A stretch of DNA of 64,000 nt, taken from positions 1,258,501-1,322,500 of the forward strand of contig NZ_CP011479.1 of assembly GCF_001011155.1 (NCBI RefSeq). Reading direction: 5' to 3'. The notes beneath the pieces are model-generated. The model was not told where the DNA came from. It ran no database searches and worked only from the letters and a program-made list of their open reading frames with translations. Below are positions 4,250-52,058 of this stretch, piece after piece; within the stretch, counting starts at the first letter, position 1, and each line of letters begins with the position of its first letter. The DNA is from Hoeflea sp. IMCC20628. Lineage in GTDB: Bacteria; Pseudomonadota; Alphaproteobacteria; Rhizobiales; Rhizobiaceae. Both the position numbers and the translations under genes were made by a program.

Positions 4250-6487
4250 CTACTTTGTCTGTTGGCCGGCGCGGTGTGAACTTATCCATTCGTCGGCGAT
4301 CTTCTGCGCCGTGACATAGTCTGTCTTGCCCGAGCCCAGAACCGGAATTTCCGGCACATTGACGATCTCGCCCGGAACCATAAGGTCGGTGGCGCCGAAC
4401 CTGCGGGAGTAATCGCGCAACTCGTCGCGCAAGGCAGGCATCTTGGTTGTCACCAGCACGATGCGTTCGCCCTTGCGGGCGTCCTCCACCGCGACGGCGG
4501 CGTGGAAGTATTCCGGCCAGAGTTTTTGCACCATTATCTCAATGGCGCCCAGAGAGATCATCTCTCCGGCGATCTTGGCGAAGCGTTTGGCGCGCCCGCG
4601 AATGGAGATGAAGCCGTCATCATCAACGGCAACGATATCGCCGGAATCGTGCCACCCATCGGCAAGCGGGTGCAGCGCGCCGGGATCGGAGGCCAACATG
4701 TAGCCGATCATGACATTGGGGCCCGAGACAAATAACCTGCCGCCATCGTTGATGCCTTCTACCGGCTCCAATCTCAGCGCCATCCCCGGCAGCAATCGGC
4801 CGACGGTTCCGTCCTTTGAGTGGCTGCCGGAATTGACTGCCGCAACCGGTGCCGCTTCGGTCATGCCGAAGCCTTCAACGATGACTGCGCCAAAGCGCTC
4901 CAGGTAGATTCTTCGGGTTTCGGCGCGTACCGCTTCCGCACCGGCCACGATCAGCCGCAAGCTCTGGAAATCGGTGTCCTTGGCGGTGCGGGCGTAGCCT
5001 GCCAGAAATGTGTCGGTGCCGAACATGATCGAGGGTTTGACCTCGCGGGCCACTGCCGGAATGATCCGGTAATGCAGCGGTGACGGGTAGAGAAACAATC
5101 TGATGCCATAGAGCAGCGGCAGGATGGCGCCGCCGGTCAGCCCGAAGGAATGAAACACCGGCAGCACATTGAACAATTTGTCGCGCACCGAAATGTCGAT
5201 GCGGGCTTCTGCCTGGGCGGCGTTGGCGTGCAGGTTCTTGTGGGACAGGACCACGCCCTTGGGCGTGCCCTCGGAGCCGGAGGTAAACAGGATCACCGCC
5301 GCATCACTCGCCTCGACCGGACGCAAGGGGCTGCGCCACATCAGGAACGCGCTGGCTTTTTCTTGACGTGAGATGGTCTCGCGCAGTTCCTCGAGCCAGA
5401 CGATTTTCACGCCTGCCGCTTCAATGGCAGCAATTTGAGGCTCGAGACCTGCCTTGTCGACAAAGGCGCGGCTGGAAAGCACTGTGCGGATCCTGGCCGT
5501 CGACAGCGCCGAGACGAGTGCAGCCGATCCCGCAGTGTAGTTCAGCATCGCCGCGACCCGACCTGCCGATTGCAGCGCCAGAAAGGTGACGATCACGGCG
5601 TTGGCATTGGGCAACATGATTCCCAGCGCTTCGCCCGGCTCGCTCATCCGCTCGAAGCGGGCGCCGAGCGCGCGCGCGCCGATCATCATCCGCTTGTAGG
5701 TGAGCTTGCCGCCAAGCGCGTCCTCAAGCACCGGTCCGGCCTTGCCATAGCGGTCGGCAGCGTCTCGGAACGCCAGGAACAGACCGCGCTCGAGGTCGTT
5801 GCTGGCAAACCGTGCCAGCGCCAAAGCATCATGCACCCGGTCTTCATCACGTGACGCAGTCGAACCGTTGCCCGCCGGGGCGATGTCGTCGAAATCAACC
5901 AGCCCTGATTGCGCCAGCCTGAAGCTCGGTAACAACTGGCGCGGGGCTTCTTCTCGCGGATGGGCTGACCAGAGCGACAAGCTCGATCCGCGGACATGCA
6001 TGGCGCGGAGTGGCGCCTTGTGCTTGCGTGCGAGCGTTGCAATTGCTGCGTAGCGGGCGAGGGTTTCAGGCGCAGGCTCGATCGGGTATGGGAGCGCAAT
6101 CGTCACAGAAGAGCCGGCAGCCAGCGCAGTCTGGATAGCTGCCGTGTCGCCGGCCGGAGCGGTGCGGGCGAACAGCCGCAGGCCGAACAGGATCAGCGAG
6201 CGCTGGTCGCCCTCGTGCAGCACATGCAGGCAGTTGCGGTCGAGTACGGACCATAAGACCGCCACGTCAAGGCCTGACTGGCGCGCGTAGACATGGATGA
6301 CCGGGCTGGCGGTTTTGGAACCGGTTGGCTCAATGGTTTCAGGCAAGTGCAGCCGGAACAGGGTCTTGAACTTGGTCAGCGCAATGGCTTGCGGCAGGCT
6401 GATGCCGTGCTTTGCCGAGGTCCGGAAAGCTGCCACCAGAACGGCACCCAGCACAATAATGATCAGTGTTGCGACCCAACCCGCCAT
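4250..6487 (-). CDS. Acyl-ACP synthetase-like AMP-binding enzyme with N-terminal extension
   Basis: A 745-residue protein. A hydrophobic N-terminal segment (about 3-22) is followed by about 200 residues that occupy the place of the acyltransferase half of Aas (2-acyl-glycerophosphoethanolamine acyltransferase/acyl-ACP synthetase), but no H-x4-D catalytic motif is visible there. The AMP-binding domain starts near residue 235: FTSGSEGTPKG at about 401-411, GFGMTEAAP near 560, and a C-terminal GSGKTDY lysine loop. It probably activates fatty acids as acyl-adenylates for transfer to ACP or CoA. It converges on pssA with only 4 bases between stops, which fits a phospholipid-repair role. A plain acyl-CoA ligase is the alternative. 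Confidence 0.75.
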   Translation of the reverse strand: MAGWVATLIIIVLGAVLVAAFRTSAKHGISLPQAIALTKFKTLFRLHLPETIEPTGSKTASPVIHVYARQSGLDVAVLWSVLDRNCLHVLHEGDQRSLILFGLRLFARTAPAGDTAAIQTALAAGSSVTIALPYPIEPAPETLARYAAIATLARKHKAPLRAMHVRGSSLSLWSAHPREEAPRQLLPSFRLAQSGLVDFDDIAPAGNGSTASRDEDRVHDALALARFASNDLERGLFLAFRDAADRYGKAGPVLEDALGGKLTYKRMMIGARALGARFERMSEPGEALGIMLPNANAVIVTFLALQSAGRVAAMLNYTAGSAALVSALSTARIRTVLSSRAFVDKAGLEPQIAAIEAAGVKIVWLEELRETISRQEKASAFLMWRSPLRPVEASDAAVILFTSGSEGTPKGVVLSHKNLHANAAQAEARIDISVRDKLFNVLPVFHSFGLTGGAILPLLYGIRLFLYPSPLHYRIIPAVAREVKPSIMFGTDTFLAGYARTAKDTDFQSLRLIVAGAEAVRAETRRIYLERFGAVIVEGFGMTEAAPVAAVNSGSHSKDGTVGRLLPGMALRLEPVEGINDGGRLFVSGPNVMIGYMLASDPGALHPLADGWHDSGDIVAVDDDGFISIRGRAKRFAKIAGEMISLGAIEIMVQKLWPEYFHAAVAVEDARKGERIVLVTTKMPALRDELRDYSRRFGATDLMVPGEIVNVPEIPVLGSGKTDYVTAQKIADEWISSHRAGQQTK

Positions 6488-47742: not shown

Positions 47743-48510
47743 TCAGTTGATGGCCCAGGGCGGGACCGCCAGAATCAGATGGGTCACCGCCGCATCGAAG
47801 GCGTAAAACGACCAGTGCAACCCATAGGCCCAGCGAAAGCCGTGCTTCAGGCGCAAATAGAGATAGGGAACGACAAGCCCGAACAGGGTCGCGGCAATGG
47901 TGAAGCGTGTCACATAGAGCGGTGAAAAGCCGTCGAGCGCCAGCAGCAGATGGAATCCGCCGAACATCAGTCCCATGCCGATTGCGATGGTCGTCAGGCG
48001 CAATTTCAACTCGGCGGCGGTGTAGATCAGTGACGCCACGAGAACCTGCTGGAACAGGATGTCGGCCGATTTGGGCAGGTAATACCAGCCGGACGCGAAC
48101 ATGAATTCCGGCGGGTCACTGGGCGCCCGCCACATTGAGACCGGCGGCAGGCTGGGCAGGATGACCGCGACGAAAATGGCAAACACCGCCATGACGGGAA
48201 CCATCGCCTTGGCGTGGGCCAGGATCTTCCGGCGCACCAGGCTGCCAGCCAGAACCCGGCGGAACCAAAGCACCGCCAGTCCGGTCCATATCAGGTAATA
48301 GGCGGCAAACAGACCCGGCGCGTCGTTGTAGCCGCTCTCCAGACCGAAAGCCTCGACCAGAACGTAGTAACCGTAGCTCGAGACCGACCACAGGCCAGCC
48401 ACGCTGAGCAGGGTGAGCACCAAAGTGACGGCGGGATACTCCACGCCGTCTTTTTGAAAGAAACGGAACCAGCCCGGCCGCATATTGCCCATGATCACCT
48501 CATCGTTCAT
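47743..48510 (-). CDS. Integral membrane protein of unknown function
   Basis: A 255-residue protein with about seven hydrophobic helices, beginning GVEYPAVTLVLTLLSVAGLW. Histidines occur in or near the later helices (GGFHLLLALDGF, YGLHWSFYAFDAAVTHLIL). I do not recognise the family. The ATG at 48510 overlaps the stop of the upstream YHYH gene as ATGA, which both fixes the start and indicates translational coupling. It presumably works with the secreted YHYH proteins, for example in membrane redox or metal handling, but that is inference from position. Confidence 0.7.
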   Translation of the reverse strand: MNDEVIMGNMRPGWFRFFQKDGVEYPAVTLVLTLLSVAGLWSVSSYGYYVLVEAFGLESGYNDAPGLFAAYYLIWTGLAVLWFRRVLAGSLVRRKILAHAKAMVPVMAVFAIFVAVILPSLPPVSMWRAPSDPPEFMFASGWYYLPKSADILFQQVLVASLIYTAAELKLRLTTIAIGMGLMFGGFHLLLALDGFSPLYVTRFTIAATLFGLVVPYLYLRLKHGFRWAYGLHWSFYAFDAAVTHLILAVPPWAIN

Positions 48511-49517
48511 GGGCGCGGCGGGCGTACCGAAGCGTCGCAAATTGCAGTGTCATCCTCGAATACGCAGCCTGCCTGGGCGGTGAGGCAGCCGAGAATCGCG
48601 TTCGAGCCCGCCGTTCCGGCGTGGTAATGATAGGCCAGCCCCTCGCTCTGATGGCCGTTGCAGCTGTCGAGATCGTCAGGGTCGGTACCTGCTGCCGTCT
48701 GGTGCGAGAGGATCTGGAAGCCATCCATCGCAATGCCGATCTGGGTGCCATGCTCTGCTGTGACGGGACCGTAGGTTGCCGGTGACTGCTGCAGGCAGTC
48801 GGTCACGGCATGATAGTGATACCCGACATGGGGGTTTACGTGGCCGCCGCAATCATCAAAAGGAGCGATGGTATGGGCGGCGAGAATCGCGTCGAGCGGC
48901 GCCGGGCCATCCAGCCTGATGCCGTTATAGGCGACGCCGGATCCGGAAAAATTCGTCGGCTGCGACTGGCTTGCGGCCTGTGGCTCAACCGGGATCACAT
49001 AGGTCATGGTTGCATCCTCAGGCATGTATTCAGGCAGGCACTGGACGCAGTAATTCTGGTAGGCCGGATCGACATCCGGACGGGCGGCTGCCTGACAGGC
49101 CTGCAATGTCCCGGTGAAACGGACATTGCCGGTGTCGGGGTCATAGAGCTGCCACTTGGCGTCGCCATAGAGTTCCGCAAGATTCTTGATGAAACTTCCG
49201 TCGACATCGTGAACCTCGCCATCCTTCAGCCAGATGCCGCCAGCCTCTGCACCGTCGGCAATGTTGCTCGGGCACCAGGGGCCGGGTGTGTAGCTCTGCG
49301 GGTCAGCTTTGACCGTGATCGAGAGGCATTTTGTCTGAGCCCCTTGTGACAGCGTGCAATCGACAATTTTCGGTTCTCCAACCAGATCCGCGCTAGCAAA
49401 GAAGGCGGACGCCTGAGTGATGCTGTCGTTCGATGTCTGGGCGACGGCTGCGGTTCCGCAGACAACCAGGCCTGCGATAAGGGCGGTCTTGAGCCCAAGG
49501 GCATTGAATGATGTCAT
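48507..49517 (-). CDS. Secreted YHYH-domain protein (paralogue 1)
   Basis: A 336-residue protein with a signal peptide ending VAQTS (hydrophobic core TALIAGLVVCGTAAVA). The N-terminal half has VDCTLSQGAQTKCLSITV, GPWCPSN and GGIW blocks; the C-terminal half has CGGHVNPHVGYHYHAVTDC, GIAMDGFQI, and CNGHQSEGLAYHYHAGT, the YHYH-domain pattern with paired His and Cys. Its function is not established; histidine and cysteine spacing suggests a metal or disulfide site. It is divergent from a MarR regulator whose operator overlaps the intergenic region. ATG 49517 is chosen at the signal peptide. Confidence 0.78.
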   Translation of the reverse strand: MTSFNALGLKTALIAGLVVCGTAAVAQTSNDSITQASAFFASADLVGEPKIVDCTLSQGAQTKCLSITVKADPQSYTPGPWCPSNIADGAEAGGIWLKDGEVHDVDGSFIKNLAELYGDAKWQLYDPDTGNVRFTGTLQACQAAARPDVDPAYQNYCVQCLPEYMPEDATMTYVIPVEPQAASQSQPTNFSGSGVAYNGIRLDGPAPLDAILAAHTIAPFDDCGGHVNPHVGYHYHAVTDCLQQSPATYGPVTAEHGTQIGIAMDGFQILSHQTAAGTDPDDLDSCNGHQSEGLAYHYHAGTAGSNAILGCLTAQAGCVFEDDTAICDASVRPPRP

Positions 49518-49581
49518 GAGTCTTCTGCGCCTTCCGTGAAGTGGTGCGGCAGCTTTTTGGCTTGCCATATGCAGATAGGTA

Positions 49582-49602
49582 GCATACTAACTGTTAGCAT
49601 GC
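49582..49602. promoter_or_regulatory. Palindromic operator overlapping the marR start
   Basis: GCATACTAAC (49582-49591), one T, then GTTAGCATGC (49593-49602) form a 10-1-10 inverted repeat with 9 of 10 matching pairs. It overlaps the presumed ATG of the MarR gene at 49599. It is suited to repress both divergent transcripts, including the YHYH gene on the other strand. Confidence 0.65.
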
Positions 49603-50078
49603 AAATCGAACCATACATTTTTCATCTCCTGCTTCACTCGGCGGCTCTTGTGGAAGAACGGCTTCGGCTCCGGCTGGCCGATCTGGATATTCCACCGCGT
49701 CAGGCGCGGATCCTTGATGCGCTGGGCCGGATGCAAAAGGCCTCCCAGGCAGAACTTGCACGCGAGTTTGATCTGACGCCTGCCAGCATGAGCACTATGA
49801 CGGGAAGGTTGTTGCAAGCCGGCTACATCTTGCGCACGCCGCATCCCGATGAGGCCCGAAGCAATGTCTTGCAACTCTCCGACAAGGGGCGTGGCTTGCT
49901 GGCGGAGGTGCACAGGGCCTGGTCTGAAATTGACCGGATGATTGTGGACACGATGGGGCAGGAGCATGCGGCGCACCTTGCCGGGCTGACACTTGAACTG
50001 CGCGACACGCTTGGCGGGCGTGGCCCCGGCCGTGCCCGGACGCCGGACCCTGCTGGCGACCAGCAACCCCAGCGCTGA
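49599..50078 (+). CDS. MarR-family transcriptional regulator
   Basis: A 159-residue winged-helix protein: LHSAALVEERLRLRLADLDI, PPRQARILDALGRM, the recognition helix in FDLTPASMSTMTGRLLQAGYI, and the wing HPDEARSNVLQLSDKG. It lies 33 bases upstream of the second YHYH gene on the same strand and divergent from the first, and a palindrome sits over its start. This makes it the probable local regulator of the YHYH locus. An in-frame ATG at 49569 could add 10 residues. The C-terminus is Pro/Arg/Gly-rich. Confidence 0.82.
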   Translation: MQIEPYIFHLLLHSAALVEERLRLRLADLDIPPRQARILDALGRMQKASQAELAREFDLTPASMSTMTGRLLQAGYILRTPHPDEARSNVLQLSDKGRGLLAEVHRAWSEIDRMIVDTMGQEHAAHLAGLTLELRDTLGGRGPGRARTPDPAGDQQPQR

Positions 50079-50111
50079 CTGTAAACGCTACAAATTGGAG
50101 AAGAGAACATC

Positions 50112-51284
50112 ATGGCAAGTTTGAACCATGCGCTGCGCGCCCTGCTGCTCGGCGGCGTATTAATGGCGCCCGGCGCGGCGATTGCCCATCCCGATCTGGC
50201 GACATTTGTTGCAGCTGCCTTTTCGAAGGAGCCGGTCACCGTCGATTGCACGCTCGAAAATGGTGTTGGCGCAAAATGCTACGAGATCACGGTCAATTAT
50301 CTTCCCGAGGGGCTGAAGATCGGACCGTTCTGCCCTGCAACGCTCGATGACGCCGGTGGTATCTGGCACTGGACCGGCGAGAATGGCGGGCTCTACCGTG
50401 TCGATGCGGAATTCCTGAAGATGCTTGACGGTCTGGGCTATCGCTTCTTTGACGATGACGGGACCGTCCATGTTGTCGACAACGCCACCGAGCGGCCAAC
50501 CGTGGATCACGCCTGCATCAACGTCTCGGCAGACGAGACGGTCAAGATCACCATGCGGCTGCCGGTGACCCCGGTCATGGCTGAAACCCCGACGGTGCTC
50601 GGTGTGGTAGGCAAGGTTGGCGTTGCGCTTGACGGCGTGCCGATCTTTTCCGATGCGCCCAGCATCCAGCAAACCGGCCATATGCCGGCCCTCGACACCT
50701 GTGGCGGCCATATCGATCCCGGCGGCTGGTATCATTGGCATGCGACGTCAACCGACATCGACACGGTGTTCGATCAGGCCAAGGTTGGGGCCCATTGTGC
50801 GCTAGAGCAGGACAGCAGGGCTCTCTTCGGCTATGCGTTTGATGGCTACCCTATGGTTGGCAGTACCGAAATGGACGGCACAGCTGCAGCCGGTCTTGAT
50901 CAGTGCAATGGCCATGTCGGTGAAACGGCGTTGGGCGTAACCTATCACTATCACGCCTCCGAAGAGTTCCCGAACCTGCCTGGTTGCCTTGTCGGAGTTC
51001 AGGCGCAGAACAATTTTTCAACAACTGCGACAGCCGGTATTGGGGCAACACGGGCCGGTGAAGGTGGCCGCAACGAGCCGCCACGTCCAGATGACGGCGG
51101 TCCCGGTCATGTGCCTCCGGGCTTCGACGAGGCTGCAGCAAGTCTGGGTGTGACCACCGATGTGCTGATGCAGGCGCTCGGAAATCCGCAAGGCGGCCGT
51201 CCTGATCTGGCTGCGGCAGCGGAGAACCTTGGCACCACCGAGGCCAAGTTGCGTGCCGTCCTGCCGCCACCTCCGGGGCGGTAA
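50112..51284 (+). CDS. Secreted YHYH-domain protein (paralogue 2)
   Basis: A 390-residue protein with a signal peptide (LNHALRALLLGGVLMAPGAAIA) and the same block order as the divergent paralogue: VDCTLENGVGAKCYEITV, IGPFCPAT, DAGGIWHW, CGGHIDPGGWYHWHAT, GYAFDGYPM, and CNGHVGETALGVTYHYHAS. The C-terminus adds a proline-rich linker and two short repeats of the A-x-L-G-V/T-T pattern (AASLGVTTDVLMQAL, AENLGTTEAKLRAVL). The two proteins share the VDCTL, KC, CP and GGIW pattern, so they are paralogues. Its biochemical role is unknown. Confidence 0.8.
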   Translation: MASLNHALRALLLGGVLMAPGAAIAHPDLATFVAAAFSKEPVTVDCTLENGVGAKCYEITVNYLPEGLKIGPFCPATLDDAGGIWHWTGENGGLYRVDAEFLKMLDGLGYRFFDDDGTVHVVDNATERPTVDHACINVSADETVKITMRLPVTPVMAETPTVLGVVGKVGVALDGVPIFSDAPSIQQTGHMPALDTCGGHIDPGGWYHWHATSTDIDTVFDQAKVGAHCALEQDSRALFGYAFDGYPMVGSTEMDGTAAAGLDQCNGHVGETALGVTYHYHASEEFPNLPGCLVGVQAQNNFSTTATAGIGATRAGEGGRNEPPRPDDGGPGHVPPGFDEAAASLGVTTDVLMQALGNPQGGRPDLAAAAENLGTTEAKLRAVLPPPPGR

Positions 51285-51455: not shown

Positions 51456-52058
51456 ATGTTTTTGAAGTTTCTGTTCAAGCCGCGTGAGCCGCAATTTGCC
51501 CTTGGCGATGACGTCAAGCTGAGATATCTCGGCCCGGCGGACGCTGTGGCTTTCCGCGACCATATCCACGAACTGCATTTTGAAGATTTCCGGGATCGTT
51601 TCAACGGTCTGGTGTCGGACTTCTGGCTCGACAAATATATCGCCCGCTCGCTCAACGAGGCGCTCGTCATCGGCGCCTTTGACGACGACCATCTGGTCGC
51701 GGTTGCGGAGCTGCACACCGGCGGCAAGATCGAGCCGGGGCAGGGCGAATCGGCATTCTCCGTGGCATCGGACTGGCGCCACAAGGGGCTGGGCACGATC
51801 CTGCTCAAGGCTTTGCTGCGGGCCGCATCGGAAAATGACATCTCCACCATCATCGTCGAGACCGGTGCGCAGAACCATGCGATGAAAGCACTGGCGCGCC
51901 GGTTTGGCGCCCGGATGCAGTTTGCCGTCGATCAATCGATCGGGCGCATCAATGTCGCCGAAGGCTTGCGGCTGGCGGGCAGGCATGTGGCGAAACAGAA
52001 TTATCCGGTGCCGCTGCCAGTGGGCGAAGCCCCGTCAGTTCCGACTTCGCTGATCTGA
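51456..52058 (+). CDS. GNAT-family acetyltransferase
   Basis: A 200-residue protein with a GNAT fold: LRYLGPADAVAF near the start, VAVAELHTGGK (strand 4 region), SAFSVASDWRHKGLGTILLKALLRAASEN (acetyl-CoA binding, R-x-x-G-x-G) and IIVETGAQNHAMKALARRFGA. The substrate is unknown. It stands alone between the YHYH locus and the phasin. Confidence 0.82.
   Translation: MFLKFLFKPREPQFALGDDVKLRYLGPADAVAFRDHIHELHFEDFRDRFNGLVSDFWLDKYIARSLNEALVIGAFDDDHLVAVAELHTGGKIEPGQGESAFSVASDWRHKGLGTILLKALLRAASENDISTIIVETGAQNHAMKALARRFGARMQFAVDQSIGRINVAEGLRLAGRHVAKQNYPVPLPVGEAPSVPTSLI

Follow-up and report, generated by a model that had tools for sequence, protein, structure and literature searches.

The pairing of an extracytoplasmic enzyme with an Rce1-like membrane protein is exemplified by SagB and SpdC of Staphylococcus aureus, of which SagB is a glucosaminidase. 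SpdC is described as almost certainly no protease because its key catalytic residues are absent (PMC7387801), and it interacts with histidine kinases (PMC5854430). Lipoprotein N-acylation in the same organism is served by LnsAB, an enzyme together with a CPBP-like protein that has diverged motifs and a weak similarity to Rce1 and APH-1; in that account of the two pairs, the catalytic residues of SpdC, LnsB and APH-1 are lacking or poorly conserved (PMC7387801). The residues given for Rce1 are E140, E141, H173, H227 and N231 (PMC10811503), and the motifs named for the CPBP family of glutamic proteases (PF02517) are EExxxR and HxxxN (PMC11980579). Proteins of the YHYH family (PF14240) are found in bacteria, phages and diatoms; the literature retrieved with the family name offered no tested function, and the two phage papers in it give predicted roles; a survey of jumbo phages, for example, predicts a metal-dependent hydrolase that is associated with the tail and has a zinc site (PMC7824862).

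Here, we examined a four-gene locus at positions 47743-51284 of a 64,000-nucleotide stretch of the Hoeflea sp. IMCC20628 genome (hereafter, the window), in which two YHYH genes, called YA and YB below, lie on either side of a gene for a MarR-family regulator, and YA overlaps a gene for a seven-helix membrane protein (the membrane gene). The computed part of our description comprises a pair of exported-looking YHYH paralogues in which a His/Asp/Cys motif is duplicated, an overlapping gene for a membrane protein of Rce1/APH-1-like predicted fold with a Gln-Gln pair, a conserved palindrome and the recurrence of the arrangement in other species; the anatomy and the recurrence are firm. Judged from sequence, the four genes look like a real envelope system. 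The reading that we favour, although tentatively, is a MarR-autorepressed metal or redox module of the cell envelope, composed of the YHYH proteins, a membrane partner that is not a protease, and an operator-bound MarR.

The YHYH paralogues and the seven-helix membrane protein

The coordinates and reading frames of all four genes held on rechecking the sequence, the membrane gene and YA being on the minus strand and the MarR gene and YB on the plus strand (Table 1). Both YA and YB scored above the curated Pfam cut-off of PF14240 (47.7 and 63.5 bits, respectively; cut-off 25), and they are 31% identical over 358 aligned columns (E 6e-35). A first-pass annotation of this DNA had recognized them as two exported paralogues by a shared pattern of VDCTL, KCxxITV, CP, GGIW, CGGH and YH(Y/W)H, and had placed them on either side of a MarR regulator; all six patterns are indeed present in both proteins, with two YHxH sites each, the MarR domain between them was matched, and the N-termini of YA and YB, as judged by eye, resemble signal peptides.

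In an alignment of YA and YB with 59 of their 74 relatives of 300-480 residues (A2; 61 sequences), the motif D-x-C-x-G-H...YHxH was present in two copies in 53 sequences, in one copy in five and in none of the other three, and not even a single copy was found in any of 6100 shuffled sequences. Seven cysteines are complete in 56 of the 61, and Cys197, Cys265 and Cys292 are jointly absent in the three sequences that lack any one of them, two of the three being close relatives. P65, G175, D195, H200, Y207, H208, H210, D244, G245, L262 and Y280 were invariant in all 17 family members chosen for comparison, which thereby have Asp195, His200, His208, His210 and Asp244 as a common His/Asp core. YA and YB differ from PF14240 in carrying an extra N-terminal region and the second copy of the motif; of 13 PF14240 members of other types (alignment A4), nine lack the motif, three carry a single copy and one carries two.

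When solved structures were searched by sequence with YA, YB and the profiles of YB and the membrane protein, no match was obtained at E 10, and comparisons of the predicted YB model with solved structures by Foldseek and VIA-align gave weak matches, mostly to the C-terminal helical tail, which do not establish a new fold. The best viral fold match of the YB model was a cyanophage YHYH protein (E 4.9e-5). In PHROGs, YA had one chance-level match (E 0.15) and the other two proteins had none. The tail of YB (window 51102-51281) is composed of four short helices, in which an LGVT/LGTT-type pattern recurs, and it weakly resembles helix-turn-helix folds.

As for the membrane protein, no family was assigned by Pfam (E 1) or by NCBIfam, and the PF02517 model gave no match to it at E 1 and none in the source genome at E 0.001. 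Its predicted model, with a mean predicted local distance difference test score (pLDDT) of 90.3, has seven long helices, of which the fifth contains His187 and the seventh His232, and this bears out the earlier description of a seven-helix protein with histidines in its later helices. We used VIA-align as a second look at the Foldseek candidates, and the top five of the 477 aligned chains ranked were SpdC (6u0o; Z 9.1, 193 residues), Rce1 (4cad; Z 8.2, 165 residues) and three gamma-secretase entries, whose chain C, APH-1, gave Z 6.9, 6.8 and 6.1. When a profile built from 24 relatives was aligned to 16 CPBP proteins, furthermore, both histidines were matched and the score was 45.2; none of 30 column-block shuffles exceeded 20.6, and reversal gave 9.6. 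The membrane protein thus probably shares the Rce1/APH-1-type fold of the superfamily that includes SpdC, Rce1 and APH-1; this predicted fold, together with the replacement of the catalytic Glu pair described below, goes beyond the first-pass annotation.

In the alignment of the 24 sequences (A3), Gln154, Gln155, His187, His232 and Tyr236 are kept throughout. EExxxR is not found, as Gln-Gln occupies the place of the Glu pair in 24/24 and the Arg position is A, S, T, L or M; HxxxN has no match either, with Tyr236 at the place of Asn in 24/24. Among the four members outside this alignment (L077, L149, the broken L144 and L151; loci are given L numbers and genomes G numbers), the position of the Glu pair is Gln-Gln in L077 and L149 and Arg-Gln in L144, and L151 is too decayed. 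The membrane protein is probably like Rce1 and the CPBP proteases in its predicted fold, and it is like them in both histidines and in two of the three spacings compared, namely 33 residues for Gln154-His187 (Glu140-His173 in Rce1) and four for His232-Tyr236 (His227-Asn231), but unlike them in lacking EExxxR and HxxxN. By analogy with SagB-SpdC and LnsAB, it looks like a pseudoprotease partner. The analogy has its differences: the YHYH proteins are unrelated to SagB, and a MarR gene and the Gln-Gln pair belong to the present set; LnsA is an NlpC/P60 protein but not a YHYH protein, and the two lns genes are noncontiguous.

Table 1. Features of the locus (positions in the window; residues of Rce1 for comparison)
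Feature	Position	Strand	Remarks
Membrane gene	47743..48510	-	255 residues, seven helices; Rce1/APH-1-like predicted fold, Gln-Gln replaces catalytic Glu-Glu
Gln154-Gln155 pair	48046..48051	-	at the position of Rce1 Glu140-Glu141; 24/24 sequences in A3
His187	47950..47952	-	aligned to Rce1 His173; 24/24
His232 ... Tyr236	47803..47817	-	at the positions of Rce1 His227 and Asn231; 24/24
ATGA overlap of YA TGA and membrane-gene ATG	48507..48510	-	putative translational coupling
YA, exported YHYH-domain protein	48507..49517	-	336 residues; PF14240 2.3e-12; export judged by eye from the N-terminus
10-1-10 palindrome over MarR start	49582..49602		probable operator, from sequence only
MarR-family regulator	49599..50078	+	ATG at 49599, alternative start 49569; MarR_2 (PF12802) 2e-12, MarR (PF01047) 6.5e-11
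YB, exported YHYH-domain protein	50112..51284	+	390 residues, C-terminal helical tail; PF14240 3.4e-17; model with mean pLDDT 88.9
YB first DxCxGH...YHxH motif, Asp195-His210	50694..50741	+	motif scan
YB second DxCxGH...YHxH motif, Asp263-His281	50898..50954	+	motif scan

A probable operator and the recurrence of the gene order

Two features of the locus noted in the first-pass annotation bear on its regulation. The ATGA overlap between YA and the membrane gene was confirmed, and it may couple their translation; the 10-1-10 palindrome over the MarR start, GCATACTAAC-T-GTTAGCATGC, was also confirmed, with nine of the ten arm positions paired and the ATG inside. The 22-base site was found once in the window and in none of 100 shuffles, and TAGCATACTAACTGTTAGCATG is a single copy in the 5.12-Mb genome when up to 3 mismatches are allowed. 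We then compared the best match in each of 24 chosen loci with those in ten two-base-block shuffles of the same locus, and all ten shuffles were beaten in 14 loci: 13 of the 19 with an adjacent MarR gene, where the match is at or just before the MarR start, and one of the five without, L137, where it precedes YA in a stretch that showed no MarR. The ten failing loci were L016, L040, L046, L048, L050, L056, L072, L132, L135 and L138. The palindrome is, on the strength of these sequence comparisons, a probable operator of MarR.

Besides, a divergent class of MarR was noticed in L046, L048, L050 and L056, in which the ATG is immediately preceded by a different palindrome, similar to AGTTAGGACCCTAACT. 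The regulator of our locus has the MarR winged-helix domain in Pfam; assignment to a named subfamily was rejected on score, in that none of the 15 NCBIfam families listed (HpaR, MarR, SlyA and others) reached its cut-off, the best equivalog being HpaR with 42.1 bits against a cut-off of 121.2.

The first-pass annotation had made its proposal depend on whether the membrane gene and MarR accompany YHYH genes elsewhere, and both of them do. In 60 loci chosen by a scan with YB, which by their titles are mostly from Rhodobacteraceae with some from gammaproteobacteria, Acidobacteria and others and some of which end early at contig ends, a MarR of the same type is beside the YB-type gene, or one gene off (L029), in 14, and the membrane gene is present in four (L017, L018, L039 and L061), always with MarR and YB. 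A YA-type protein was found in 15 of the 60, leaving out L057 (4e-12).

In a reverse test that was blind to YHYH, the membrane family was the only query against 394 genomes from the family of G091, 18 of which have it. The nine close membrane-gene loci comprise L132-L138, which are the seven besides G091, and L072 and L076 from the genus of the source organism. A whole YA is present in three of them (L076, L136 and L137), only remnants of YHYH genes in three (L133, L134 and L135; by tblastn) and no YHYH sequence in the other three (L132, L138 and L072), and MarR is present in four (L076, L133, L134 and L136). The remnants correspond to YA residues 149-202, between MarR and the membrane gene, and YB residues 342-389 in L133, to YB-type residues 1-168 and YA-type residues 138-199 (a 62-residue remnant) in L134, and to YA residues 217-330 in L135; their recorded coordinates are L133:6488-6649, L134:2550-3053 and 5243-5428, and L135:5694-6041. 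In L151, a broken membrane gene adjoins a close MarR near a contig end.

Counted over whole genomes, PF14240 is present in 6/8 genomes with a close-type membrane gene, 1/10 with only a distant or broken one, and 4/20 without the membrane gene, the last being those listed of 376 without a match; these counts are underestimates, as the YA-type genes that G414 and G418 have at these loci fall outside the threshold of E 1e-5. The gene order makes a stronger case for the association than the whole-genome counts do. The close membrane gene is present in two of 18 genomes of the genus (G000 and G010); a 43% relative occurs in G006, and the match in G011 is weak and contains stops. PF14240 is commoner in the genus, with 12 of the 18 genomes, and it is in 18 of 299 genomes of the phylum. 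Five genes of the source genome belong to PF14240, and the membrane family has two members there, one in the locus and another at C1:761872-762549. A third YHYH gene in the own genome, L075:5013-6751 (C1:1399012-1400750), overlaps a gene for an exported protein of the type called c18 and is near a cluster that by eye resembles sox genes for thiosulfate oxidation. In the congener G010 (L076:4481-5467), a different YHYH protein takes the place of YB and is followed by a gene that by eye looks sulfatase-like.

Redox genes and other neighbours

One locus has a run of plus-strand genes that hints at chemistry: in L137, YA is followed by c12 (a small Cys-rich exported protein), the membrane gene, a Ferric_reduct/FAD/NAD protein, Lcl_C, a ferredoxin, a short Ferric_reduct protein and an FAD_binding_2 protein, the names being taken from Pfam matches in L137 or from the similar copies in L134. 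In L134, the membrane gene, ferredoxin, Ferric_reduct, a shortened YB-type gene and the gene for the FAD protein are in line, the FAD protein in this copy having by eye a start like that of twin-arginine translocation (Tat) substrates; L136 has YA, the membrane gene, Lcl_C and two flavin-protein genes in pieces. In each of the three genomes, of 13 tested, that have the FAD protein, its gene is near the membrane gene. Relatives of the larger Ferric_reduct protein, moreover, occur close to the distant membrane genes in L140 and L143. In the window itself, where the scan outside the four genes covered only an acetyltransferase gene (51456-52058), no redox neighbour was seen, and a literature search on ferric reductase, flavoprotein, MarR and Roseobacter gave nothing relevant by title among the matches listed. 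The redox and transport neighbours are context, not proof.

A response regulator, c12 and YB are in line at six of the 60 YB loci (L009, L010, L011, L013, L014 and L021), the regulator of L009 scoring best to BaeR, below the BaeR cut-off. Other neighbours were also noticed. The gene for c12, which elsewhere sits between a response regulator and YB, adjoins the membrane gene in L072:6916-7278, L137:6000-6317 and L144:7152-7466; the scanned copies of c12 and c18 matched no named family in Pfam or NCBIfam. A heavy-metal P-type ATPase gene directly adjoins distant relatives of the membrane protein in L145:4460-7281 and L147:6178-9046, and in a congener (L077:430-4803) the distant membrane gene is flanked by genes for Peripla_BP_2 and catalase. 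In two Psychrobacter loci (L029:5101-5634 and L031:4954-5475), a PEBP-like protein is encoded beside YHYH.

Competing explanations and significance

In the envelope module that we tentatively favour, the YHYH proteins would bind metal at their His/Asp motifs and, outside the cytoplasmic membrane, would perform a redox or metal reaction or help it along. Their membrane partner would be no protease; it might hold or present either the YHYH protein or the substrate of that protein, in a pairing like that of SpdC with SagB, and MarR would bind the palindrome, repress itself and the divergent operon of YA and the membrane gene, and release the palindrome when its signal appears. The metal or redox role that the first-pass annotation had suggested is supported only indirectly, by the five invariant His/Asp residues, by the published prediction of a zinc site (PMC7824862) and by the L137 run with its two partly broken versions. 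A more specific form, namely a new extracytoplasmic oxidoreductase system in which a new class of secreted YHYH metalloenzyme, with two repeated His/Asp/Cys sites and a fold for which our searches gave no solved relative, and a dedicated Gln-Gln pseudoprotease partner of Rce1 fold are controlled by a MarR answering oxidant or metal stress, the metalloenzymes receiving electrons from ferric-reductase-like and flavin proteins (L137) or from other donors elsewhere, is conceivable and would have to be called unlikely.

Several results weigh against the favoured module. On the side of the membrane protein, Foldseek alone was weak, with Rce1 third at E 1.2; the lowest APH-1 entry (Z 6.1) ties with MgtE (5.8 and 5.5); Z values of 8-9 between helical proteins, a range rated as middling by the tool, can reflect a common arrangement of helices; and His187 and His232 are 45 residues apart, compared with 54 in Rce1. 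On the side of recurrence, the membrane gene is missing within the fetched flank at 56 of the 60 YB loci, and YHYH is absent at all 12 distant membrane-gene loci (L139-L150). The YHYH proteins of L136 and L137 were missed by the Pfam model at E 1e-5 and are recognized by our own profile, tblastn and motifs. Because YHYH has decayed in L133, L134 and L135 beside a membrane gene that is still an open frame, the membrane gene can outlive its supposed partner. As to the redox genes, L137 alone has them whole together with a whole YHYH gene, since the YHYH genes of L134 are broken and the flavin genes of L136 are in pieces; the FAD protein, furthermore, was found in three of 13 genomes tested (E 1e-20) and is absent from the source genome.

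The poor showing at YB loci and distant loci would also be expected if the neighbourhood were accidental. YHYH sequence was nonetheless found near six of the nine close loci collected blind to YHYH (three whole, three broken), compared with about 0.01 per locus expected from five YHYH genes per 5 Mb by our own arithmetic, and the operator is shared among loci. An accidental neighbourhood is highly improbable; these counts speak against it for the close clade, where we reject it, and we keep it for the distant clade. A rather unlikely alternative makes the YHYH proteins metal-dependent hydrolases that act on the cell wall or on a surface polymer and are positioned by the membrane protein in the manner of SpdC and SagB. 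The prediction from jumbo phages, the cyanophage protein as the best viral fold match and SpdC at the top of the structural matches would all fit a hydrolase; the phage function is itself a prediction, however, and in the chosen part of the neighbours that was scanned, redox and transport genes were prominent but no cell-wall gene was.

Binding or adhesion at the cell surface, with the His and Cys motifs being structural, would agree with the Lcl_C genes near the membrane gene in four loci (L133, L136, L137 and L140); we consider it quite unlikely, as the invariance of the His/Asp core in 17 members is beyond what a binding scaffold would usually need. The membrane protein could, instead, be a CPBP enzyme of altered type that is active as a protease or an esterase and processes YA, YB or material attached to them. 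Full conservation of its Gln154, Gln155, His187, His232 and Tyr236 is what such an enzyme would have, and DidK, described as an esterase, has Asp-Glu at the same place (PMC10811503), but the loss of the Glu pair in every aligned sequence and of the Arg of EExxxR makes this very unlikely.

Whichever chemistry applies, the YHYH family gains from this locus a regulator together with its likely operator, a membrane partner whose predicted fold is recognizable and one operon suggestive of chemistry, and because the locus supplies these, the function of YHYH proteins becomes directly testable. If the favoured reading of an envelope module is true, the conserved Gln-Gln pseudoprotease would add a Gram-negative pairing of an enzyme with a pseudo-CPBP protein beside SagB-SpdC and LnsAB.

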